Shown here piece by piece: positions 1,778-17,992 of a stretch of DNA of 64,000 nt (positions are counted from its first letter, which is position 1; every line of letters begins with the position of its first letter). Origin of the DNA: Halothece sp. PCC 7418 (GTDB taxonomy: Bacteria > Cyanobacteriota > Cyanobacteriia > Cyanobacteriales > Rubidibacteraceae). The notes under the pieces were generated by a model. It searched no databases, was not told where the DNA came from, and saw nothing but the letters and a program-made list of their open reading frames with translations. The stretch spans positions 868,001 to 932,000 of the forward strand of contig NC_019779.1 in assembly GCF_000317635.1 (NCBI RefSeq). The letters are read 5' to 3'. A program made the position numbers and the translations under genes.

Positions 1778-4700
1778 TTAATTATCCGCAACCAATTGTT
1801 TCTCATTCACCGATTTAGATTCCTGCTTCCCATTAGATCGCTGATTGCCATAATACATCAAAGGAATAATAAACAGCGTCAATGCAGAAGAGGTTAACAT
1901 CCCTGTTAATAATGTCCAGGCTAACCCAGACCACACGGGATCGCTGAGAATGGTTAACGTTCCTAACATGGTGGTGACACTGGTGAGGAGAATCGGGCGA
2001 AAGCGCACCGCACCCGCTTCGATGATGGCTTCTTTTAGTTCAATGCCTTCTTTGCGTCTGTCTCCGACAAATTCCAAGAGGACGATCGCGTTACGAACAA
2101 CAATCCCCGCTAATGCAATCACTCCAATCATCCCTGTGGCGCTGAAATAAACACCGTTGAGAGAGAAGCCCACTAAAATTCCGATTAAGGCGAGGGGAAT
2201 CGATCCCAACATGATTAAGGGAATCTTGAAACTGCGGAACTGTCCGACAAGGATAATATAAATGAGGATGACCGCCACCAGCATCGCTAAGCCTAAATCG
2301 CGGAAGACTTCGAGAGTGAGTTGCCATTCCCCTTCCCATTTAATATAGTAGCCATCAGGTAAGGGGTTACGGAAGAAGTAAATCAGTTGTTCCATCACTG
2401 CATAAACCGACGATCGCGCATCCATTTCCCCAAAGACATAGGTGACAGGAACTTGATTTCTGTGGAAGATGGGCTGATCCACCGTTGTGGAAGTAAAGGT
2501 CACTAACTCAGTTAAGGGGACTAAATTTCCCTCTGGAGTGGGCATTTGAATCCGACGCAGATCATCAATGCTTTGACGGTTGGCTTCGGCAAAACGGACT
2601 TGAATTTGCACCGGCGTTAATTCACCGGGAACTTGCAACGTGGAAGCATCGACCCCGCGAATTGCCATGTTGATGGTTTGGGCGATGTCTTGGGTACTTA
2701 ATCCCGCTTGGTTGGCTTTTTGCCGATCCACTTCCAGCTTCATCTGCGGGATTTGGTTTTTGACAGAATCATCCACGTCCACCACTTCGCCGGTATTGCG
2801 GAAGACATCAGCCACTTGTTTGGCAAGTTCACGCTGGCGTTCGTAGTCGGGTCCATAAATTTCCGCTAGCATCGTCGAACGCACCGGTGGACCCGGTGGA
2901 TCTTCAATTAACTTGACGATCGCGTTATTCTGTTGGGCAATATCCGTTAACTTGGGACGTAAGCGAAAGACAATATCTTCAGAACTGACAGACCGCGCAC
3001 TCTCATTAGTTAGGTGAACTCGAATATCGGCTAAATGTTCCCCACTGCGATGGGTATTCCCCCGCAATAAGCCGTTAAAATCAATGGGTGCAGCGATTCC
3101 CACATAGCTTTCAAACTGGACAACTTGCGGGTCTTCTTTCAGTACCGTTTCCATTTCCCGGACAATGCGGTCTGTTTCGACTAATTCCGTTCCCAACGGC
3201 GCATCCACTTGCACTAAGAAGCGGTCTTCATCCGCTTTCGGTAACATTCGGAATTTCACCGCTTGCGTCAGGGGAAGGGCGAAACTCGCTAGGAGTAAGC
3301 CCACCACAAAGAAGATTAAAAACCGTCGTCGGGTCGCCGAATCAATTAACGGTTCCATGATCCGCCGATACAGGTTATAAATGCGGTTGGGGACTTCTTC
3401 GGAAGATTGACCATCCTGATCGCCGTTATTATTTTGGGAACGTCCCTGCACTTTAATCACTCGTACCGCCAGATAGGGCGTGACAATAATCGCCAGCGAG
3501 GTACTAATAATCATCGCCACCGGAACATTAAAGGGAATCGGTCCCATGTAAGGTCCCATCATTCCCGTCACAAAGCCCATAGGGATAAAGGCGAGAATAA
3601 CCGTTACGGTAGAGAGAAGAATGGGAACGCCTAATTCAGCAACCGCAAGGGTTGCCGTTCGTACCTTCTGGGAAAAGGACTGATCGGGCATTTCTTCAAA
3701 GCGACGGTGGATGTTTTCTGTTACCGCGATCGCGTCATCCACTAAAATCCCTAACGATAAAATCAGCGCAAACAGGGTAATTCGGTTAATGGTTTGTCCC
3801 GCGATCCAACCCACTAACAACGTTCCCGCAAGGGTTAAGGGAATGGCTAAAGCCACAATTAACGCATCGCGCCATCCCAAAAACGCAATCAGTAAAACAA
3901 CAACAATCGCGATCGCCTGAAATAAACTAGAATACAAGTCGCCAACCGCTCGCGCTGCGGTGCGTCCAGCATTCCGACTGACGGCAATTTCTACGCCCGT
4001 GGGCATCTCGTCTTGTAATTCTTCAACACGATTAAAAATTTCTTTGGCGACAACCACCGCGTTTGTCCCTTTTTTCTTCGCAATCCCAATCGTCATCGCC
4101 GGACGTTCTGCAAAGTCTTGTTCCGGCTTTAATTTCGGATCAGGATAGGGTTCGGTGACATCCCAGTCTTGGCGGTTAAAGAGACGAGAATAAGTTGCGC
4201 GATCGTCATAGCCATCACTAACCGTGGCGACATCTTCTAAATAAATGGGCGATCCATCTTCCCCTTGTCCAACAACAATCGCTTTGAGTTCATCAGCCGT
4301 TTCAACAAGGTTTCCCCCTTCAATAAAAATCCGTCGATTCCCAACTGACACATCCCCTGCTTGCACTTGGGTATTCGCAGCTTGGATGCGTTGCGAAATC
4401 ACCGCCGGAGAAATCTGATAACTTGCCAACTGTTCGGGATCTAAATCCACGCGCATCACTCGCGGTTGTCCCCCCGTAATGGTTAAATTCCCCGTATTGG
4501 GAATTTGCCTTAACTCTCGCAGTAACCGTTCCCCAACGCGACGCAACTGGTTATCACTATAGTCTTCTCCCGTTACCGTCAGTGTCACAATCGGAACATT
4601 ATCCACAATCAAGGGATCAACCTGATAATTGACCCCTTGCGGTAACTCATCTCGGGAGTTAAACAGATGATTTTGCAGGCGAAATAAGGAATTTTCCCAG

Positions 4701-5038
4701 TCTTCCCCCACAAAAAACTGGGCAGTGATGCGGGCTTGACCGGTTTGCGAGGTAGAATAAATATCATCAATCCCCGGCAATTCCCGCAGTTTCGCCTCAA
4801 TGGGCAACGTCACGGTTTCTTCCACCACTTCTGCTGGCGCACCCGGATAATGGAAATAAATATCCGCACCCGGAACGGTAATTTGCGGATTTTCTTCTTT
4901 GGGGGTAAACAACGCAGCAGCCAACCCAAAGATCACTAGGGCAACAATGATCAACAGGGTCACTTGCGAATTAACAAAATAGGCGGTGATGCGACCGACG
5001 ATATTTAGGGGGCGTTGTTGTTCAGGAGTATTAGTCAT
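1778..5038 (-). CDS. RND-family efflux permease (AcrB/HAE1-like)
   Basis: The 1086-residue protein has the RND inner-membrane pump layout: an N-terminal helix (about residues 18-42), a large periplasmic loop, a block of helices with the family motif LVDDAIAVTENIHRRFE, a second periplasmic loop, and a final helix bundle. Such pumps use the proton gradient to expel lipophilic compounds or metal complexes with a periplasmic adaptor and an outer-membrane channel. No adaptor adjoins it, but an adaptor gene sits 4.2 kb away in the sqr operon. The start codon lies inside a heptamer repeat array and has no Shine-Dalgarno. The substrate cannot be told from sequence; it looks closer to the multidrug HAE1 class than to the heavy-metal CusA class. 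Confidence 0.92.
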   Translation of the reverse strand: MTNTPEQQRPLNIVGRITAYFVNSQVTLLIIVALVIFGLAAALFTPKEENPQITVPGADIYFHYPGAPAEVVEETVTLPIEAKLRELPGIDDIYSTSQTGQARITAQFFVGEDWENSLFRLQNHLFNSRDELPQGVNYQVDPLIVDNVPIVTLTVTGEDYSDNQLRRVGERLLRELRQIPNTGNLTITGGQPRVMRVDLDPEQLASYQISPAVISQRIQAANTQVQAGDVSVGNRRIFIEGGNLVETADELKAIVVGQGEDGSPIYLEDVATVSDGYDDRATYSRLFNRQDWDVTEPYPDPKLKPEQDFAERPAMTIGIAKKKGTNAVVVAKEIFNRVEELQDEMPTGVEIAVSRNAGRTAARAVGDLYSSLFQAIAIVVVLLIAFLGWRDALIVALAIPLTLAGTLLVGWIAGQTINRITLFALILSLGILVDDAIAVTENIHRRFEEMPDQSFSQKVRTATLAVAELGVPILLSTVTVILAFIPMGFVTGMMGPYMGPIPFNVPVAMIISTSLAIIVTPYLAVRVIKVQGRSQNNNGDQDGQSSEEVPNRIYNLYRRIMEPLIDSATRRRFLIFFVVGLLLASFALPLTQAVKFRMLPKADEDRFLVQVDAPLGTELVETDRIVREMETVLKEDPQVVQFESYVGIAAPIDFNGLLRGNTHRSGEHLADIRVHLTNESARSVSSEDIVFRLRPKLTDIAQQNNAIVKLIEDPPGPPVRSTMLAEIYGPDYERQRELAKQVADVFRNTGEVVDVDDSVKNQIPQMKLEVDRQKANQAGLSTQDIAQTINMAIRGVDASTLQVPGELTPVQIQVRFAEANRQSIDDLRRIQMPTPEGNLVPLTELVTFTSTTVDQPIFHRNQVPVTYVFGEMDARSSVYAVMEQLIYFFRNPLPDGYYIKWEGEWQLTLEVFRDLGLAMLVAVILIYIILVGQFRSFKIPLIMLGSIPLALIGILVGFSLNGVYFSATGMIGVIALAGIVVRNAIVLLEFVGDRRKEGIELKEAIIEAGAVRFRPILLTSVTTMLGTLTILSDPVWSGLAWTLLTGMLTSSALTLFIIPLMYYGNQRSNGKQESKSVNEKQLVADN

Positions 5039-5278: not shown

Positions 5279-5692
5279 CTAGCCGACGACAGCAGCGTGA
5301 ACTTGTCCCATCACAGAGAAACTCTTCAGGAAAGGATTGACCATGCGAGGATCTTTGATCATTGCGCCATAGTCACCAACGACAAATTTTAACTTGCCTT
5401 GCATATACGCACCACTTAATCCCATCATATTCAATCCTTTCTGGAACCATTTTTCCCAATCTTCAGGCTGAGCACGCAAATCCCAACTGAGGGTTTGTCC
5501 GTTGTAAGCCCCAGCGTCAACAGCTTTGCCATCTTTAACCACTAAGACACCTCTGGGTTGATCTTCGCCTTTGAAACCATAGCCAATCACCGAGTCAAAG
5601 TTAATTTTTGCTAAAGCATCAGAAAGATCGGGTTCTGCGTTCCATTTTTCTTGGTATTGTGCCATCCATTCGGGAGAAAATAAATCTGCCAT
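5279..5692 (-). CDS. SCP2 sterol-carrier-fold protein
   Basis: The 137-residue cytosolic protein matches the SCP2/sterol-binding fold in length and pattern: a strand with GVLVVKDGKAV, an alternating stretch ending LSWDLRAQPEDWEKWF, and the terminal amphipathic block GKLKFVVGDYGAMIKDPRMVNPFLKSF. Bacterial SCP2 proteins bind hydrophobic ligands; the ligand here is unknown. It lies downstream of the CxxC flavoprotein in the same direction, but a 129-nt gap with a palindrome separates them, so co-transcription is uncertain. Its place in the sulfide island suggests a role with lipid-soluble sulfur species or quinone, which is inference. Confidence 0.75.
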   Translation of the reverse strand: MADLFSPEWMAQYQEKWNAEPDLSDALAKINFDSVIGYGFKGEDQPRGVLVVKDGKAVDAGAYNGQTLSWDLRAQPEDWEKWFQKGLNMMGLSGAYMQGKLKFVVGDYGAMIKDPRMVNPFLKSFSVMGQVHAAVVG

Positions 5693-5821: not shown

Positions 5822-6829
5822 TTAAGCCGAAGCTGTGGTGAGAAGATTTTCTTCCCAGCGACGGGGGGGCGTTGCATTGCGGATATCGCGCCAAATTTGG
5901 GTTGCAGCTAAAGCCCCATCACCCGCAGCAACAACGACTTGGTTTAAGCCCACTTTGAGATCGCCAATGGCGAAAATTCTAGGGTGAGAGGTGCGTCCCA
6001 TTTTATCCGTAATTAAGTTATTGCCTTTATAGTCAAGGTCAAACCGAGTGAGATAATCATGGTGATACTTCGATCCCATTGAGATTAACCCCGTTTCTAA
6101 CTCAATCACGGAACCATCGGTTAATTCCACACCTGTCATTTGATGGTTTTCCCCAAGGAACTGTTTAATTGGGGTTTCTACGATACGATAGCCATGATCT
6201 TCCAGTTGCTGACGCAGTTCTGGTCGAATCTCAAACATCCCATGGGTAAAGATGGTGATGTAAGGGGTGAACCAGCTTAAATTAAAGACCATTTCTTCAA
6301 TACTGGCTTCACTTCCCGCGAAGAAACCGCATTGTTTATCAGTCATTTCATAGCCATCACAGACCATGCAAACGTGCAGATTATAACCTGCATATTCATA
6401 AACGTTTTGCATATCGTCTAAAGGCGGAAGCTGATCGATAATGCCACTAGCAGCAATAATATATTTTGCTCGTAAGACGGGATAGATACTATTATCATTG
6501 CGTCCCACTTTTGTGGTTACGGCGAAGGTTTCTCCTTCATCAACGATATCTTCTACAAAGCCGTTGAGAAAGTCTCCCTCTAAAGATAAATAATGATCTT
6601 TTCCGCGTTTGAGGAGTTCCCGTCCTGGGGTATCTGGGGGTAAACCGAGATAGTTGTGTAACTCCTGCATCCAAAACGATCGCGCTTTGCCTTTGTCGAT
6701 GATCAGGCTAGAGAGATTATACCGTTGCAAGTAAATCCCTGCGGATAATCCCCCTGCCCCACCACCGACAACAATCGTATCGTAAATCTGATCTTGTCGC
6801 TGATCGAGGTTTTTGCGACTAATCTGCAT
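5822..6829 (-). CDS. Thioredoxin-reductase-like FAD/NAD(P) oxidoreductase with CxxC
   Basis: The 335-residue protein begins with an FAD-binding Rossmann motif (VVGGGAGGLSAG, residues about 20-31), has a mid-protein redox pair C154-MV-C157 where thioredoxin reductases carry CATC, and ends with the second FAD motif IFAIGDLKVG. The redox pair is followed by DGYE, as in thioredoxin-reductase relatives. Known members pass electrons from NAD(P)H or ferredoxin to a disulfide or persulfide partner. The central NAD(P) loop is degenerate (FFAGSEASIEE instead of GxGxxA), so the electron donor may not be NADPH. It sits between the SCP2 and rhodanese genes on the same strand, 89 nt after the rhodanese stop. 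Partner unknown. Confidence 0.82.
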   Translation of the reverse strand: MQISRKNLDQRQDQIYDTIVVGGGAGGLSAGIYLQRYNLSSLIIDKGKARSFWMQELHNYLGLPPDTPGRELLKRGKDHYLSLEGDFLNGFVEDIVDEGETFAVTTKVGRNDNSIYPVLRAKYIIAASGIIDQLPPLDDMQNVYEYAGYNLHVCMVCDGYEMTDKQCGFFAGSEASIEEMVFNLSWFTPYITIFTHGMFEIRPELRQQLEDHGYRIVETPIKQFLGENHQMTGVELTDGSVIELETGLISMGSKYHHDYLTRFDLDYKGNNLITDKMGRTSHPRIFAIGDLKVGLNQVVVAAGDGALAATQIWRDIRNATPPRRWEENLLTTASA

Positions 6830-6918: not shown

Positions 6919-7287
6919 TCACTTACTTGTGGGAAGTCCTTTCTGTTGCCACTCCATCATTCCGCCAGAAATGTTATACACTTTTTGAAAGCCAGCCTTG
7001 AGGAGTTGCTTGGCTGCGATCGGGCTACGATGAGAGGTTAAGCAGATGACAGCAACCGGCTGATCTTTTGGTAGTTCCCGAAACCACTTTGGTAGTAACA
7101 ACCGTCTTAAAACAGGAATCATGCCAAAGGAAAGGCGAAAGAGACTCAAGTTCACCGCTTGCGGTGCATGACCCGTCTTATATTCAAAACCCGTCCGCAC
7201 ATCGATTAATTTCGGAGGACGCGCCATTTGTTGATACTGCTTCGGTGAAATTTGTCGCACGGTTGGTTGTGCCGATGCTGTAACCAT
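6919..7287 (-). CDS. Rhodanese-domain sulfurtransferase
   Basis: The start is the ATG at 7287, preceded by a good AGGAG; an upstream alternative in frame would overlap the neighbouring gene. The 122-residue product is a single rhodanese domain with the DVRTGFEYKTGHAPQAVNL entry block and the active loop C82-LTSH-R87 (CX4R). Rhodaneses move sulfane sulfur from persulfides or thiosulfate to acceptors. The gene follows DUF2892 by 32 nt and precedes the CxxC flavoprotein, forming a leftward operon divergent from sqr. A hydrophobic insert (FGMIPVLRRLLLPKWF) may dock it to the membrane, which is inference. Confidence 0.88.
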   Translation of the reverse strand: MVTASAQPTVRQISPKQYQQMARPPKLIDVRTGFEYKTGHAPQAVNLSLFRLSFGMIPVLRRLLLPKWFRELPKDQPVAVICLTSHRSPIAAKQLLKAGFQKVYNISGGMMEWQQKGLPTSK

Positions 7288-7319: not shown

Positions 7320-7523
7320 TTATTGCGTCCGACAAGTCTTCCAACCGAAAATGCTATAAATCGGACAAGTGCCAACAAGTGCGGTTAATGTTGGAACGGT
7401 TGCTGCAACGCTTAGAATAATGCCAGTTGTCGTTCCGCTATAAGTGCTCATTCCCAGAAATAATAAGACTCCAGCTAAACCTAAGCGTAGAATTCGGTCT
7501 AGGAAACCAACATTATGAGACAT
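7320..7523 (-). CDS. DUF2892 small inner-membrane protein
   Basis: This 67-residue protein matches the DUF2892/YgaP-C-terminal family: a short N-terminus SHNVGFLDRILRLGLAG, two membrane helices (about residues 12-28 and 33-50), and a conserved end TCPIYSIFGWKTC. In E. coli YgaP this segment is the membrane anchor of a rhodanese. Here anchor and rhodanese are adjacent separate genes, 32 nt apart and in the same order of transcription. It is the first gene of the leftward operon and lies directly beside the divergent control region. Confidence 0.88.
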   Translation of the reverse strand: MSHNVGFLDRILRLGLAGVLLFLGMSTYSGTTTGIILSVAATVPTLTALVGTCPIYSIFGWKTCRTQ

Positions 7524-7562
7524 CGTGATTGATCCTTCGTTGTTTGTTTCACTTCATTTACA

Positions 7563-7591
7563 AATATATAACCAATTAGTAATTTAGTCAA
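7563..7591 (-). promoter_or_regulatory. Leftward promoter with AATATATRAC box on the -10
   Basis: Reading leftward there is TTGACT (7591-7586), a 17-bp spacer and TATATT (7568-7563), about 40 bp before the DUF2892 start codon. The decamer AATATATAAC (7563-7572 on the plus strand) covers the -10 element. The same decamer with one change occurs in the sqr promoter. This is the arrangement expected for a repressor site shared by divergent operons, most simply for the ArsR-type regulator encoded after sqr. Confidence 0.55.
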
Positions 7592-7619
7592 CCCTTGAAT
7601 CCGAAATCAGTTTGTGTTA

Positions 7620-7647
7620 TTGTGAATATATGACTAAATAGTAGTAT
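7620..7647 (+). promoter_or_regulatory. sqr promoter with AATATATRAC box in the spacer
   Basis: TTGTGA (7620-7625), a 16-bp spacer and TAGTAT (7642-7647) lie just upstream of sqr. The decamer AATATATGAC (7625-7634) fills the spacer, where a bound repressor would block RNA polymerase. It is a direct repeat of the box at 7563-7572, 62 bp away. The promoter elements are by-eye matches. Confidence 0.5.
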
Positions 7648-7668
7648 AAAAATAAGGATTTATAAAAT

Positions 7669-8982
7669 ATGGCACATATCGTAATTGTTGGCGGTGGATT
7701 TGGCGGACTGTCTGCAGCTTATGAACTTAAGCATCTTCTGCACGGAAAGCACAAAATTACTCTCATTTCCGATGAAACGACCTTTACCTTTATTCCCTCT
7801 TTACCGTGGGTTGCCTTTAATCTTAGACGCTTAGAAGATGTTCAACTGCCCCTAGCCCCCTTATTAGCTAGACAAGGCATTAATTGGCAACACGGGAGGG
7901 TCACTGGTCTTGATCCCAACCAGAAACGAGTGAGTGTGGGCGAGGATATCACCTTCGATTATGATTATCTCGTAATTACAACGGGGGCTTCTTTGGCGTA
8001 TCATTTGATGTCGGGGTTGGGACCAGAAGAGGGCTATACGCAATCCGTGTGTAATGCTCATCATGCGGAAATGGCGCGAGACGCCTGGGATGAGTTCTTA
8101 GAAAATCCGGGTCCCTTGCTGGTGGGGGCGGTTCCGGGGGCAAGTTGTATGGGACCTGCTTATGAATTTGCCCTATTAGCCGATTATGCCTTGCGCCAAG
8201 AAGGCAAGCGCGATCAAGTTCCCATTACCTTTATCAGCCCTGAACCCTATCTCGGACATTTAGGAATTGGGGGGATGGCAAACTCCGGGAAGTTAGTCAC
8301 CGAACTAATGAAGCAGCGGAATATTGATTGGGTCGAAAACGCTGAAATTGCGGAAATCAAAGAAGATCATGTCAAATTAACTGATGGTCGTGAGTTTCCA
8401 TTTAACTATTCCATGTTTTTACCGCCATTCCGAGGCGCACAATTCTTAAAAGAGGTTCCTGGCTTAACTGATGAAAAGGGCTTTTTACCGGTTCTCGATA
8501 CTTATCAACATCCTGACTATCCCTCCATTTATAGCGCAGGCGTGATTACCCAATTAGCAGCACCTGAAGAAACTGAAGTTCCCCTTGGTGCCCCAAAAAC
8601 GGGTCAAATGACGGAATCCATGGCAATGGCAGTTGCCCACAATATCGCAAGGGAATTGGGGGAAATCAACGCCCGTCCTGTGAAACCCAGTCTAGAAGCG
8701 ATTTGTATGGCAGATTTTGGCGATACCGGCATCATCTTTATTGCTGCACCGGTTGTTCCTGATCCTAGTGTGGGGCATCGTCGTCATGCGACTGCGCTGA
8801 GAGGGCTTTGGGTGAATTGGGCGAAAAATGCTTTTGAGTGGTACTTCTTAGCAAAAATGCGCTGGGGAACTGCGGTGCCTTGGTTTGAAAAGCTAGGACT
8901 GTATTTATTGCGGTTAACTTTGGTAACTCCCATTTCCGAAACGCCTACTCAGCAGAAGGATTTAACGAGTATAAAAGGATAA
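7669..8982 (+). CDS. sqr: Sulfide:quinone oxidoreductase
   Basis: The 437-residue flavoprotein starts with the FAD motif IVIVGGGFGGLSAAYEL and has three cysteines at 128, 160 and 346, matching the three redox cysteines of classical SQR (127, 156, 353 in Rhodobacter capsulatus). The C-terminal third is rich in amphipathic aromatic segments (NWAKNAFEWYFLAKMRWG) that in SQR anchor the enzyme in the membrane near the quinone. SQR oxidises sulfide to sulfane sulfur and passes electrons to plastoquinone; in some cyanobacteria it supports sulfide-driven anoxygenic photosynthesis. It heads an operon with arsR (3-nt gap) and an RND adaptor. A flavocytochrome-c-like relative is possible but the three cysteines favour SQR. 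Confidence 0.9.
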   Translation: MAHIVIVGGGFGGLSAAYELKHLLHGKHKITLISDETTFTFIPSLPWVAFNLRRLEDVQLPLAPLLARQGINWQHGRVTGLDPNQKRVSVGEDITFDYDYLVITTGASLAYHLMSGLGPEEGYTQSVCNAHHAEMARDAWDEFLENPGPLLVGAVPGASCMGPAYEFALLADYALRQEGKRDQVPITFISPEPYLGHLGIGGMANSGKLVTELMKQRNIDWVENAEIAEIKEDHVKLTDGREFPFNYSMFLPPFRGAQFLKEVPGLTDEKGFLPVLDTYQHPDYPSIYSAGVITQLAAPEETEVPLGAPKTGQMTESMAMAVAHNIARELGEINARPVKPSLEAICMADFGDTGIIFIAAPVVPDPSVGHRRHATALRGLWVNWAKNAFEWYFLAKMRWGTAVPWFEKLGLYLLRLTLVTPISETPTQQKDLTSIKG

Positions 8983-8985
8983 ATT

Positions 8986-9261
8986 ATGAGTGACATTGCA
9001 ACGGTGGATCGCTATGAATTTTTAGCCAGTCGGTTTAAGTTATTGAGCGAACCCACCCGATTACGAATTTTAGAAGTCATTTGCGGTGAGGAACGTAAAG
9101 TCAGTGACATTTGCGAACGCACGGGTTTACAACAAGCCAATGTGTCCAAACAGTTGCAGTTATTAAGGACTGCAGGGGTTGTCGCTTGTCGGCGGGTGGG
9201 GACTTGTCGTTACTATCGCGTGACTGACCAAGAGTTATTGAAGCTGTGCGATCGCGCTTAG
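8986..9261 (+). CDS. ArsR-family repressor, likely sulfide/persulfide sensor
   Basis: The 91-residue protein is a compact winged helix of the ArsR/SmtB class: helix with LSEPTRLRILEVICGEERKVSDIC, recognition helix QQANVSKQLQLLRTAG, and wing CRRVGTCRYYRV. It has five cysteines (33, 43, 68, 74, 88), many for its size. Persulfide sensors of this superfamily (SqrR, BigR) use a cysteine pair and control sqr operons. It follows sqr by 3 nt and precedes the adaptor gene by 28 nt, so it probably autoregulates the operon. Metal sensing is the alternative; an ELCVCD metal-binding motif of ArsR/SmtB type is absent (the matching place reads VICGEE). Confidence 0.88.
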   Translation: MSDIATVDRYEFLASRFKLLSEPTRLRILEVICGEERKVSDICERTGLQQANVSKQLQLLRTAGVVACRRVGTCRYYRVTDQELLKLCDRA

Positions 9262-9289
9262 TTTGCAAGGAGAAAACAGAGGAATCAAT

Positions 9290-10639
9290 ATGACCAATAC
9301 ATTATTTATTAATCAACTATCACAGAAAAAACGCTTACTGGGAGTGACGAGTTTAATGATTCTCCTCGCGGGGGGAGGGATTTGGGGTTTAAATGCGGTT
9401 GTCAAACCCAATTTTGCGGTGTCCCAAACCACTGAAGAAACGGAAACGGCGAAAGTTGCTGTAGAAACGACAACTGTCGGCTATGAAACCACACGGCGCG
9501 ATCGCGTGATGACGGGAACGGTTACGGCGCAAAAATCAGCAACCCTCACCACTCGTGTCAATGGCATTATTGAACAAATTTTAGTGGAAGAAGGCGATCG
9601 CGTGGCAAAAGGCGACCTCATTGCCAAAATTGATGTCCGCGATATCCAAGCCCAAACCAATCAAGCCCAAGCAAGTTTGTCACAAGCGCAATCAGCAGTC
9701 AATTCCGCGCGATCGGCTTACTTGACGGCGCAATCCCAAGAAAACCAAGCCCAAGCTGCTGTAGAAGAAGCAAGAGGAGAATTACGGGAAGAAGAAGCGG
9801 AATTAAAAGATGCACGGTTGCACCAACAACGGATGTCGATGCTGTATAAAAATGGCGCAGTGAGTAAATCGCGTTTAGATGAAGCAAATGCCCGCTTAGC
9901 AAGCAGTGAAGCCCGAATGGAGCAAATTAAAGCCAATATCCAACAAGCCCAAAGCCGAGTGGAACAAGCGCGATCGCAGATGGATCAAGCGCAAAGCAGC
10001 ATCGAACAAGCCCAAGCTGGGGTTGCCCAAGCCAAAGCCAATTTAGACCAAAGTAGTGCGAATCTCGACTATGGTAACCTCAGAGCACCCTTTGATGGTG
10101 TAATTACCAAAAAACAAGCCCATGAAGGGGCAATGGCAGGGGCAATGGCTGGATTTGGACAACCGATTGTCACGGTGGAAACAGTGGATAATCTGGAATT
10201 TAAAGTGCCCGTTCCGGAATCACTCCTCGGACAAGTTTCCGTTGGGGAAAGAATTGGCGTTAAAATTGACGCAATTGGACGAGAAGTGGGCGGTGAAATT
10301 AAACAAATTGTTCCTAGTGCTGATCCCAAATCCCGTAACTTTATAGTGAAAATTGTTCTGGATGAAGACAAACAAGTCATTCCAGGGATGTTTGGTCGCA
10401 TTAGCCTTTCCACCCGCGAAGAAGGCACATTAACCATTCCTGAATCCGCCGTCATTGAACGCTTTGGCATTACGGGTGTTTATCGCGTTGTCAATGATCA
10501 AGCCCAATTTACAACAGTGACACTTGGTAGTCAGCAAGGGGATCAAATTCAAATTCATTCGGGACTCGAAGCAGGAGACACCATTATCTTAAATCCGTCT
10601 GCCGAAGTGAAAGATGGCGCGATCATTGCCAAAAAGTGA
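9290..10639 (+). CDS. RND efflux periplasmic adaptor (HlyD/AcrA family)
   Basis: I chose the ATG at 9290 because a GAGG lies 8 nt upstream; an in-frame TTG at 9263 lacks this. The 449-residue protein has a membrane anchor (about residues 17-36), a lipoyl-like half (ILVEEGDRVAKGDLIAKID), a long Gln/Ala-rich coiled coil (about 115-265), the returning half-lipoyl LRAPFDGVITKK, and beta-barrel and proximal domains. Adaptors of this kind bridge an RND pump to an outer-membrane channel. The likely partner is the RND permease at 1778-5038. It is the third gene of the sqr-arsR operon, so its expression should follow sulfide. The last 85 bp overlap the convergent hicA. Confidence 0.92.
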   Translation: MTNTLFINQLSQKKRLLGVTSLMILLAGGGIWGLNAVVKPNFAVSQTTEETETAKVAVETTTVGYETTRRDRVMTGTVTAQKSATLTTRVNGIIEQILVEEGDRVAKGDLIAKIDVRDIQAQTNQAQASLSQAQSAVNSARSAYLTAQSQENQAQAAVEEARGELREEEAELKDARLHQQRMSMLYKNGAVSKSRLDEANARLASSEARMEQIKANIQQAQSRVEQARSQMDQAQSSIEQAQAGVAQAKANLDQSSANLDYGNLRAPFDGVITKKQAHEGAMAGAMAGFGQPIVTVETVDNLEFKVPVPESLLGQVSVGERIGVKIDAIGREVGGEIKQIVPSADPKSRNFIVKIVLDEDKQVIPGMFGRISLSTREEGTLTIPESAVIERFGITGVYRVVNDQAQFTTVTLGSQQGDQIQIHSGLEAGDTIILNPSAEVKDGAIIAKK

Positions 10640-10839
10640 AGCGCGATGGCAAGTGAATCTTCTTCGAGATTGAGTTGTTTCCGAATTAAACGGCACAAAC
10701 TATCTTTAATTTCATTGTGATGTGGGATTGGCACTTTACTTCCCGTCACTGGGTTACGGTAAATGTCATGTTTTGAGCGATGCCGATGCAATATACAACC
10801 CGCTTTTTCCAGTTCACGAACAAGTTGTTTACGCTTCAT
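10555..10839 (-). CDS. hicA: HicA-type mRNA interferase toxin with extended C-terminus
   Basis: The first 60 residues match HicA: KQLVRELEKAGC, the catalytic-His region RSKHDIYRNP (H24) and VPIPHHNEIKDSLCRLIRKQLN. HicA proteins are usually about 60-80 residues; this frame reads on to 94, and the last 28 codons are antisense to the 3' end of the RND adaptor gene. The tail therefore looks like read-through into a neighbour rather than a family domain. The start codon overlaps the hicB stop by 4 nt (ATGA). Confidence 0.82.
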   Translation of the reverse strand: MKRKQLVRELEKAGCILHRHRSKHDIYRNPVTGSKVPIPHHNEIKDSLCRLIRKQLNLEEDSLAIALHFLAMIAPSFTSADGFKIMVSPASSPE

Positions 10840-11039
10840 ACATCAAGGACAAGTTCCTTGGTTTTGACCTCGGCTGGGGCAGGTTCTTCGTCTATTATCA
10901 TTAGTTTATAGGCATCTTGTATGTTTTCTTCTAATTCTTCAAGCGTTTCCCCTTGGCTAAACACACCAGGAATACCTCTTAAACGCCCAACGAACCAACC
11001 ATCATCATGCCAATATTCCAATGTAAATGACTGTGGCAT
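10836..11039 (-). CDS. hicB: HicB-type antitoxin
   Basis: The ATG at 11039 follows a GGAGG and gives a 67-residue protein. It has the HicB-like fold signature YWHDDGWFVGRLRGIPGVFSQGETLEELEENIQDAYKLMI. HicB binds and neutralises HicA and usually represses its own promoter; this short form ends soon after the partial RNase H-like domain and shows no obvious separate DNA-binding domain. It is encoded directly upstream of hicA with a 4-nt overlap, the antitoxin-first order. Confidence 0.85.
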   Translation of the reverse strand: MPQSFTLEYWHDDGWFVGRLRGIPGVFSQGETLEELEENIQDAYKLMIIDEEPAPAEVKTKELVLDV

Positions 11040-11235
11040 ACGTCCTCCAGACTTTAAGGTGTGGTTATATTCTATCGAGAAGATCCCAAACGTTTCAGAT
11101 TTTGGCAATCAGCGCAAAACCCTGACTTTATAAAAGGTTAGAAAACCTCATCCTCACTATAGATGATTTTTTTCTATTCCCCATGTCCTAATATGAACAT
11201 ATTCAATCTTGTCGAATATAACCAATAAGTTAAAA

Positions 11236-11823
11236 ATGATTAAATTTCTCTCCCAACTCATCCTTTCTTTGTTATTAGCCTTCAGCCTCATTTTGCTTCC
11301 CCTTCAACCCGCTTATGCACAACCTCAGGCGGAACAGTTAGCTGATGCTGTACAGGAAATAGAATTCTTAGATTCCATGAGATCGAGCTTAGCTTCCACC
11401 TTAGAAGGAACGGATGAAAAACCCACTCTAGAAACCTTCAAAGAAGTGTGTAAACCGGTAGGAATGCGAGCGAAACAACTCAGTCAAGAAAAGCCTTGGG
11501 ATGTGAAACAAGTTGCAGAAAAATATCGAAATCCTGCTCACGCACCAACTACACGAGAAGCCCTTGCGCTAGAAAAGTTTGCCAATAATCCTGACTTATT
11601 TGGTTTCTGGGAAACAACACCAGAAGAAACCTTTTATTATCGACGCATTAATGTCGAAGCAACTTGCTTAAAATGTCATGGTGCAAAAGCGGAACGTCCT
11701 GATTTTGTGAAACAACGTTATCCCGAAGATAAAGCCTATGATTTTGAAGTAGGAGACTTACGGGGAATGTATCGCGTTGTACTTCCTGAAATACAACAAC
11801 AAATTCAAGCTGCTTTACAGTAA
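11236..11823 (+). CDS. Exported DUF3365 (Tll0287-like) haem protein
   Basis: Starting at the ATG at 11236 gives 195 residues with a clean signal peptide (helix about residues 7-25, cleavage near AYA-QPQ). The mature part contains TCLKCHG (a CxxCH c-type haem site) preceded by YYRRINVEA and followed by VGDLRGMYRVVLP, the layout of the DUF3365/Tll0287 family. Tll0287 from Thermosynechococcus is a c-type haem protein suggested to sense redox state. An upstream in-frame TTG would spoil the signal peptide. It stands alone, with an IS remnant downstream. Confidence 0.83.
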   Translation: MIKFLSQLILSLLLAFSLILLPLQPAYAQPQAEQLADAVQEIEFLDSMRSSLASTLEGTDEKPTLETFKEVCKPVGMRAKQLSQEKPWDVKQVAEKYRNPAHAPTTREALALEKFANNPDLFGFWETTPEETFYYRRINVEATCLKCHGAKAERPDFVKQRYPEDKAYDFEVGDLRGMYRVVLPEIQQQIQAALQ

Positions 11824-12556: not shown

Positions 12557-13069
12557 ATGATGAAAATTATCTCAAATTGGAAACAACTTTTTTTACTGAC
12601 TTTCACAGCTATTCTTGCAGTGTTCCTTTTCCTTCCGAATAGTGCAGAAGCCTCCGTCCGCAAAACTGAAGAAGCAGATGGACAAATTCTCTATCAATCT
12701 CGCCATCAACTACAAGATAATCAACAACAATCTTGGCAAGTGGTTTTATTCAAAAGAGAAAAAGGAGAAACTGAAACTGATGTCAAGCTCAGATTAGTTG
12801 GTTTTCCTGGAAAAGTTGAAGTGACTCATCCCGAACCTTTAGTCATCGAAACCGATCGCGCTGCTTGGCAAGCCGAAGATCTATTTGCTGAAAAATCTCC
12901 AGCCCCAAATGTGGGACAATATAACCTCAATAATATTATTCCTGAACTTTCCCCACAAGATAGTCTGGTGCTAAAAATACCAGCAAATGACTATAAAAAT
13001 CTAACGCTAAAGGTTCCAGGAGTAATCATTTTAGAGTGGAAAATTGTCGCTGGCAATAATGAATCATAG
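12557..13069 (+). CDS. DUF3122 exported protein, copy 1
   Basis: The 170-residue protein has a signal peptide (helix about residues 10-28, cut near AEA-SVRK) and the DUF3122 pattern: ILYQSRHQLQDNQQQSWQVV, KLRLVGFPGKVEVTHPEPL, APNVGQYNLNNIIPEL. The family is largely cyanobacterial and of unknown function. A paralogue lies 1.3 kb downstream (14375-14896) with the same blocks. It begins 55 nt after the IS605 remnant. Confidence 0.85.
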   Translation: MMKIISNWKQLFLLTFTAILAVFLFLPNSAEASVRKTEEADGQILYQSRHQLQDNQQQSWQVVLFKREKGETETDVKLRLVGFPGKVEVTHPEPLVIETDRAAWQAEDLFAEKSPAPNVGQYNLNNIIPELSPQDSLVLKIPANDYKNLTLKVPGVIILEWKIVAGNNES

Positions 13070-17336: not shown

Positions 17337-17518
17337 CTGGCTTCTTCGATACCAATGTTGATATGACTTCGGGAGGAGCAAATATAACTATATGTTTATT
17401 AAGTTAGAAGTTAGCAAGTTTGATGAGTAACCATCTTGATGTCGTATTGTTTTGCGACAGAAAGGTCTTATTGATCAAGCTGAATGATGAACTGAATTCA
17501 AGATAACAACCACAGCCA

Positions 17519-17992
17519 ATGTTAAAACGTTTAGCTATCCTCTGTTTAACCTGTCTTCTCGGGTTGGGAATGGGAAGTTCCTTGCTTCCCCACCCTCTTC
17601 CTCAAAATAACGCGATTGCAGCAACGGTTTCTTCGGAAGTCGAAACAGCAGTTGATGAGTTTTTAAGTAATATTCCGAGGGGGTATTATGCAGTGAAAGA
17701 AGTGGATGAACTGGAAAAAATGGTTCAGAAACAAGATGCACAATTAATTGATGTCCGTGAACCTCTAGAATATGCAAGGGGACACATCCTCAATGCAATT
17801 AATATTCCGCTTCGAGATTTAGCGAAACGACAAGATAAGATTGCTACCGACCGACCCGTCATCGTCTATTGTACGGTTGGCTATCGCACCGCGATCGCGC
17901 TGGCTACCTTACATTTACTCGGATATGACAATGTTTTAGGCTATCCCGCCAGTGTTAAAGGTTGGAAAGCAGCTGGAAAATCTCTAGAATAA
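17519..17992 (+). CDS. Exported rhodanese-domain protein
   Basis: The 157-residue protein has a signal peptide (helix about 4-20, cut near AIA-AT) and one rhodanese domain: LIDVREPLEYARGHILNAINIPL and active loop C118-TVGY-R. It should act in the periplasm or thylakoid lumen, unlike the cytosolic rhodanese at 6919. A linker with NIPRGYYAVKEVDELEKMV precedes the domain, as in several cyanobacterial rhodaneses. Substrate unknown. A terminator follows. Confidence 0.88.
   Translation: MLKRLAILCLTCLLGLGMGSSLLPHPLPQNNAIAATVSSEVETAVDEFLSNIPRGYYAVKEVDELEKMVQKQDAQLIDVREPLEYARGHILNAINIPLRDLAKRQDKIATDRPVIVYCTVGYRTAIALATLHLLGYDNVLGYPASVKGWKAAGKSLE

Follow-up and report, generated by a model that had tools for sequence, protein, structure and literature searches.

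A shared dyad upstream of sulfide oxidation and alternative photosynthesis genes suggests an ArsR/SuoR-type regulon in Halothece sp. PCC 7418 and other cyanobacteria

Which protein controls the divergent sulfide oxidation operons of Halothece sp. PCC 7418, through which site in the DNA between them, and does that site govern other genes as well? The strain is connected with the sqr work on Aphanothece halophytica. Coordinates refer to the window, the 64,000-nucleotide stretch of DNA analyzed here. The operons diverge from a 145-bp gap (7524-7668). On the plus strand are a type I-like sulfide:quinone oxidoreductase gene (sqr, 7669..8982; PDB 3hyv, E 4e-99), for which 3hyv and the 3kpk/3sz0 group are the nearest solved structures, and, directly downstream, the gene of a 91-aa ArsR-family repressor (8986..9261; PF01022, NF033788) that we propose as the reader of the site, followed by that of an RND periplasmic adaptor (9263..10639; TIGR01730). 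The minus strand encodes a DUF2892/YgaP-like transmembrane protein (7320..7523; PF11127), a rhodanese (6919..7287; PF00581), a thioredoxin-reductase-like flavoprotein (5822..6829; PF07992, with TIGR01292 below its cut-off), a small protein without a Pfam match that appears SCP2-like by eye (5279..5692) and an RND efflux permease (1778..5038; PF00873). The two halves of one RND pump seem to be split between the operons, since the adaptor gene lies in the rightward operon and the permease gene in the leftward one. In Pseudanabaena sp. ABRG5-3, genes of the DUF2892, sqr, arsR, DUF3122, SCP-2, rhodanese, adaptor and permease kinds are all codirectional.

Putative operator dyads in the sqr gap

A preliminary description of this DNA, made from the sequence, had noted two decamers, AATATATAAC (7563-7572) and AATATATGAC (7625-7634), as the only words of the form AATATATRAC in the gap; they are in fact the only exact ones in the entire 64 kb. 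Shuffled versions of the gap held a mean of 0.009 such words, and none of 2000 shuffles reached two. With one mismatch allowed, however, the window contains 7 decamers against 7.96 expected, which is the chance level. The preliminary description had also called for a search upstream of sqr in related genomes, and there conservation of the decamer failed: within 150 bp of sqr the exact word occurs twice in the window genome and once in congener G004, and is absent from congeners G002 and G001. The decamer was rejected as the operator unit on these two grounds, its chance-level frequency with one mismatch and its absence from two of three congeners in which dyad-like sites persist.

The decamers lie in a 24-nt direct repeat (7563-7586 and 7625-7648; 79% identity, copies 62 nt apart), each copy of which is an imperfect dyad with a 2-bp center. 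Each decamer is the left half of one longer dyad with the consensus TATAACTA-NN-TAGTTATA, and we take the putative operator to be this dyad of 18-22 bp rather than the decamer. Dyad 1, TATAACCA-AT-TAGTAATT (7567..7584), and dyad 2, TATGACTA-AA-TAGTAGTA (7629..7646), each differ from the cross-genome consensus at 3 positions, and 3000 shuffles of the gap never yielded a pair within 3 mismatches. A pair of dyad-like sites precedes sqr in every one of the four sqr-bearing members of the genus, at 1-4 mismatches (3 and 4 in G004, 4 and 4 in G002, 1 and 4 in G001), although both sites are within 3 mismatches in the window gap only. Dyad 2 aligns in all four members, and by eye no other part of the gap alignment is as well conserved as the dyad-like sites.

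Both dyads overlap probable promoters. The leftward promoter, TTGACT-17-TATATT (7563..7591, minus strand), matches 10 of 12 positions in a promoter scan that found sites at the chance rate (3 promoter-like sites vs. 3.9 in shuffles); the first decamer covers its -10 element, as had been described, and dyad 1 occupies its -35/-10 spacer. A rightward promoter beneath the second decamer, also claimed earlier, can be read by eye as TTGTGA (7620-7625)-16-TAGTAT (7642-7647; plus strand, 8 of 12 positions) but falls below the scan cut-off. Dyad 2 lies between these two elements (by eye), in the spacer and -10 region.

The dyad and ArsR proteins at other sqr loci

The comparison covered 43 sqr loci, comprising that of the window, those of three congeners, 30 from further cyanobacterial genomes and nine from named records. 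Of the 39 loci outside the genus, 23 carry a dyad no more than 350 bp before sqr (200 shuffles: mean 0.22, maximum 2) and 16 lack one, while a site at ≤3 mismatches falls within the sqr gene body in 2 of 39; the matches listed include a 1-mismatch dyad within sqr itself in G118. Because the consensus was taken by eye from sqr upstream regions, there is some circularity in the sqr count; the psbA, petC and own-genome counts below are free of it. The P values in this work are overstated because the genomes are related. In Synechocystis PCC 6803, TATAACTACATAGTTGTA, with a single mismatch, lies 52 bp before suoS in the suoC-suoS gap.

The window ArsR scores 45.9 bits against PF01022 (HTH_5; cut-off 22) and 80.6 bits against NF033788 (cut-off 55). 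By eye, 27 ArsR proteins encoded near sqr fall into three sequence groups: A, the window type (13), B, the SuoR type (5), and C, encoded by separate genes (9). C88 is retained in all 27, and C33, C43 and C68 in all 13 A-type proteins. In the recognition helix, Q50, N52, S54, K55 and L57 do not vary among 16 of the 27 proteins, drawn from all three groups, and a 13-member set agrees. In a structural model of the window protein (pLDDT 87.6), residues 50-62 form one helix, C33 lies just past helix 23-32 and C88 is within helix 82-90. SqrR and BigR are described as sensing with cysteines of helix 2 together with helix 5 or a C-terminal extension (PMC8960804), which makes a dithiol persulfide switch plausible for the modeled window ArsR.

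For 18 of 43 sqr loci the retrieved flanks contain no ArsR gene, some of these flanks being short (L045, L058, L059, L084). G001 has kept its sites, yet it shows neither an ArsR gene within 5 kb nor one at E≤1e-14. Of nine arsR genes located apart from sqr, three have a dyad close to the start of the gene (one of the nine ends at the locus edge), and the matches listed include a 2-mismatch dyad about 340 bp before an ArsR gene in both G041 and G053.

Dyads at psbA, petC and other genes

Across the 4,179,170 bases of the Halothece genome there are 16 dyads at ≤3 mismatches, four of which (window 7567, 7629, 11217 and 17383) lie within 9.8 kb (chance ~6e-6). A purely local reading of the operator was given up on this result; the preliminary description had overlooked the further dyads, both in the window and across the genome. 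A position weight matrix (PWM) trained on 23 sqr sites from outside the genus ranked the same four highest in the window (7629, 20.3 bits; 7567, 17.0; 17383, 14.8; 11217, 13.9), the next site scoring 12.3. The third dyad, TATAACCAATAAGTTAAA (11217..11234), directly precedes a gene for a Tll0287-like (DUF3365) protein (11236..11823, plus strand; PF11845, scanned from 11239); it is the weakest of the four and oddly placed, ending one base short of the ATG (11236). A DUF3122 protein gene follows (12557..13069, plus strand; PF11320), and in Synechocystis too a DUF3122 gene comes after a DUF3365 gene. The fourth dyad, TATAACTATATGTTTATT (17383..17400), lies 119 bp 5' of a second rhodanese gene (17519..17992, plus strand; PF00581) whose product has a signal-like N-terminus by eye. 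The gene directly after sqr in G001 is a relative of the window's Tll0287-like gene (81% identical), and further along, past a DUF3122-like gene (by eye), comes a relative of this rhodanese gene (70%). That the genes downstream of dyads 3 and 4 sit in the G001 sqr run is independent support for placing both dyads in the same regulon. Between the adaptor and Tll0287-like genes, two small leftward ORFs (10555-11108) resemble a HicA/HicB toxin-antitoxin pair by eye.

Elsewhere in the genome, strong sites precede a DUF2892-petC2-NifX-like operon (22.2 bits), the gene for an NMO-family enzyme (20.1), a psbA gene of the D1' type (19.7) and a gene with a BLH-phosphatase domain (16.1). The dyads of psbA and petC2 are likewise flanked, by eye, by -35 and -10 elements (TTGCAT-17-TATAGT and TTGTCA-18-TATATT). 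The remaining eight sites (C1:1356051, 274281, 665518, 965174, 1005188, 1527881, 3024238 and 3327409) are in reading frames or beside genes that look unlinked by eye; we regard them as chance occurrences, their PWM scores (9.5-13.1) having no sharp border with those of the eight strong sites (13.9-22.2).

The association with psbA and petC is selective among paralogs. Our psbA set comprised 99 genes from a search of 36 genomes, 34 of them with type I sqr (11 further rows were left out: 4 with short upstream sequence, 6 without the N-terminus, 1 duplicate). A dyad lies upstream of 17 of 29 D1' psbA genes, none of 65 standard psbA genes and one of five genes of neither type (D1' vs. standard, Fisher 2.5e-11 with kinship ignored; shuffle means 0.13 and 0.28), leaving 12 of 29 D1' genes without one. 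The distance to the ATG is 74-95 bp in 12 of the 17 and 191-223 bp in the other 5. In Halothece, one psbA of five has the dyad, namely the copy bearing A80, L158 and A286, residues that we take to mark the D1' type. The fifth psbA (L148, G000:C1:788582-789640; 76% identical, with L130, A80 and A286) has no dyad and presumably encodes a rogue-type D1. The D1' psbA of G001 (L283, G001:C1:809800-814500) has a 3-mismatch dyad, and the match to the gene is split into two pieces some 1.2 kb apart, of which the second contains stop codons.

Of 20 genes for the second Rieske paralog (petC2, at least 66% identical to the Halothece petC2), 16 have a dyad within 600 bp; of 36 ordinary petC genes from the same genomes, none does. 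The petC2 set omits L271, a copy of L126 whose upstream sequence is missing; two of the ordinary petC upstream regions are ended by a contig, and the Halothece copy was matched from residue 41 only. At six of the 20 petC2 genes the dyad is shared with a divergently oriented sqr; a dyad is found at 10 of the remaining 14. Halothece has it at one petC of two. The occurrence of petC2 is linked to that of sqr: over 386 genomes, each is found in 33 and both in 18. A dyad also lies within 600 bp of petC2 in 5 of the 15 petC2 genomes lacking type I sqr (4/13 and 1/2), which means that sqr bearers are not alone in having the operator.

Other genomes have dyads at further genes, among the matches listed and with some genomes represented by their best locus alone. 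A perfect dyad precedes a Tll0287-like gene in G291; in G332 a dyad accompanies genes for a glyoxalase/persulfide-dioxygenase-like enzyme and a rhodanese, divergent from D1' psbA; G175 has one at a TauE gene; and G002 has dyads at genes for DoxX and a cytochrome c6-like protein, at a plastocyanin gene and, as in Halothece, before the NMO gene. Behind a 1-mismatch dyad in L277 (G116) and L279 (G027), which belong to two families, are HdrC- and HdrB-like genes, suggesting that a heterodisulfide-reductase-like unit may be under the same control. Sites at ≤2 mismatches without clear sense were recorded on contigs C59 and C53 of G085 and in L102/L103 (DUF2358), L109, L114-L116, L119, L123, L128-L130, L155, L161 and L281; L113 has a perfect dyad, also without clear sense, between a SulP-like gene and another gene. 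In G085, near-identical dyads with 1-2 mismatches lie near both ends of the two contigs (L111, L278, L282), possibly as part of a phage or plasmid repeat with no tie to sulfide.

Could these sites reflect promoter composition, or a different regulator? The dyads are AT-rich and lie between -35 and -10 elements, as would spacer or curvature sequences of AT-rich promoters recognized by no specific protein; we consider this highly improbable, given that dinucleotide-preserving shuffles fail to yield dyads, that 65 standard psbA promoters have none and that 4.18 Mb contain only 16. An ArsR that senses arsenite or a metal, and governs sqr and the RND pump together as a metal-resistance unit, would be in keeping with the protein family and with the RND adaptor and permease within the two operons, and Grim and Dick (PMC5061849) describe sqr and arsR as expressed while Synechocystis oxidizes arsenite. 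The cysteines allow either chemistry, persulfide or arsenite/metal, because C33, C43, C68 and C88 are retained in all 13 A-type proteins. Against a metal-resistance unit, the genes behind the eight strong Halothece dyads include no arsenic gene, and we think this explanation quite improbable.

It is also unlikely, though a somewhat better candidate, that ArsR reads the local sqr/DUF2892 gap only and that the psbA and petC2 dyads answer to a low-oxygen regulator such as the MarR activator ChlR. ChlR D35H is reported to bind the psbA1 (D1') promoter of Synechocystis (PMC4500134, section 14), and dyads of the form ATAACT-N4-AGYTAT occur at chlAII-like genes in 7 of 30 chlA loci (30 of 48 rows read, one with short upstream sequence; the chlAII set is 12 of the 30, chosen partly by eye). 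The center of the chlAII dyads differs, however, being mostly TGAT, TTAT or CTAT. In a center-neutral search, A stood at position 8 in 23 of 29 sqr, 16 of 21 D1' psbA and 17 of 19 petC2 sites but in only 3 of 18 chlAII sites; the psbA and petC2 sites thus look like sqr sites in that this A prevails in all three. None of the 16 Halothece dyads is near either chlA copy of that genome. The ChlR motif given in a review (PMC13421787), TTMCC-N3/4-GGWAA, is found at ≤1 mismatch in 3 of 18 dyad-bearing and 10 of 65 standard psbA promoters, a weak comparison because it is also absent from all 19 chlA promoters tested. At several loci (L328-L333, L336, L357) boxes like ATAACTTGATAGCTAT lie upstream of chlAII-like genes, around positions -47 and -210, and five loci of family f6 have the two together. 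These boxes have the half-sites of the sulfide dyad with another center, and are perhaps the real low-oxygen box of those lineages. ArsR and ChlR may engage in crosstalk at shared half-sites.

A proposed sulfide regulon and its known relatives

The most likely reading of these patterns is a conserved ArsR/SuoR-type regulon that would induce sulfide oxidation together with alternative photosystem parts. We infer how ArsR binds and represses, which sulfur signal it perceives and how its cysteines react. On this account the gap 7524-7668 would hold two ArsR-type operators, one within each divergent promoter. A dimeric ArsR from the sqr operon would occupy both dyads and block RNA polymerase, keeping the sqr-arsR-adaptor and DUF2892-rhodanese-flavoprotein-RND operons silent without sulfide. 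Sulfide or its oxidized sulfane-sulfur products would modify ArsR cysteines, probably C33 (end of helix 2) and C88 (helix 5), and the released protein would leave both operons on, arsR included. The same operator would act at D1' psbA, the DUF2892-petC2-NifX-like operon and the NMO enzyme, BLH-phosphatase-like, Tll0287-like and second rhodanese genes. Because it marks both sulfide and photosynthesis genes, sulfide oxidation and alternative parts of photosystem II and cytochrome b6f would be switched on jointly. We judge this account as a whole (two ArsR operators, co-repression, release by sulfide, a regulon shared with D1' psbA and petC2) to be probable on the sequence evidence.

What is new is the regulon: in many cyanobacteria a single operator would place alternative photosynthetic subunits under the same control as sulfide oxidation. 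Grim and Dick (PMC5061849) found sqr near low-oxygen psbA genes and suggested linked regulation, and section 18 of their paper names no site; such a regulon was not found described in the literature searched, the scope of which excluded most subscription journals. We give even chances to a wider reading, that TATAACTA-NN-TAGTTATA is one operator language used by three related ArsR subtypes, defining a cyanobacterial sulfide regulon that swaps D1 for D1' and PetC for PetC2, in some genomes also swaps in cytochrome c6-like, plastocyanin-like and HdrBC-like proteins, and turns on persulfide dioxygenase-like enzymes, rhodaneses and TauE alongside sqr. If true, the regulon would supply the genetic switch that has been missing between oxygenic and sulfide-dependent photosynthesis. 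With the dyad come a concrete site to mutate, a candidate protein and a prediction of the psbA and petC copies that should respond to sulfide: in Halothece, one psbA of five and one petC of two.

Published expression data bear on this proposal in both directions. In Synechococcus PCC 7002, polysulfide increased psbA up to 8.6-fold and petC up to 5.6-fold, while sqr fell (PMC12466478). On the plasmid of that strain, a 3-mismatch dyad is found 107 bp upstream of a DUF2892-Rieske gene pair, and sqr has none. This fits the regulon, though the relevant passages leave unstated which of the petC and psbA copies were assayed, and the D1' psbA genes of its relatives G065 and G090 have no dyad; the fall in sqr, at a locus without a dyad, counts against the proposal. 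Deletion of sqr in PCC 7002 is reported to raise psbA1-3 and petC 1.5-2-fold (PMC7042703), which opposes a simple sulfane-sulfur switch because loss of sqr should lower sulfane sulfur.

Several characterized regulators share features with the proposed system. RexT of Nostoc PCC 7120 is likewise a cyanobacterial ArsR-family protein, and a thiol sensor, but its vicinal C40-C41 pair is not in the window ArsR sequence, and the site ATTCG-N15-CGAAT to which it is reported to bind (PMC8960804) is absent from the gap. ChlR is of the MarR family, unlike the window ArsR; what it has in common with the proposed system is D1' psbA, whose psbA1 promoter it is reported to bind (PMC4500134). SqrR and BigR are, like the window protein, ArsR-family members at sulfide oxidation genes, and C33, just past its predicted helix, and C88 may be the counterparts of their cysteine pair. 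The NCBIfam BigR model (NF040642) gives the window protein 44.8 bits, below the cut-off of 155. The SqrR operator, in the form ATTC-N8-GAAT quoted in the preliminary description, is indeed absent from the gap, where the best match has 3 of 8 fixed bases wrong. That description had raised the prospect of a different sensor-operator pair; the dyad and the ArsR proposed as its reader are instead of the SuoR kind and not wholly new.

SuoR is the closest precedent. According to a review (PMC4307280), this ArsR-type protein binds the suoC-suoS gap of Synechocystis and silences both operons. The suoS-suoR/suoC-suoT locus, on plasmid pSYSM of Synechocystis sp. PCC 6803, differs from the window in its divergent partner, a DUF302 gene and a chrA-type transporter gene in place of DUF2892-rhodanese-RND; no arsenic-transport partner of the suoC-suoT type occurs in the divergent operon of the window (DUF2892, rhodanese, flavoprotein, small protein, RND). 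One dyad was found in the suo gap and two in that of the window, SuoR and the window ArsR are 47.6% identical, and the review's passage on SuoR mentions no psbA/petC regulon, unlike the dyad set described here. The likenesses are an arsR-type gene downstream of type I sqr, a gap shared with a divergent operon, DUF3365 and DUF3122 genes nearby and the same dyad at one mismatch. The earlier proposal of a shared operator under both promoters, read by ArsR, gains from dyad conservation and from SuoR, with the dyad replacing the decamer as its unit. Co-repression of both operons is very likely right in kind by analogy with SuoR, because the dyads are conserved and the Synechocystis gap that SuoR is reported to bind itself carries one.
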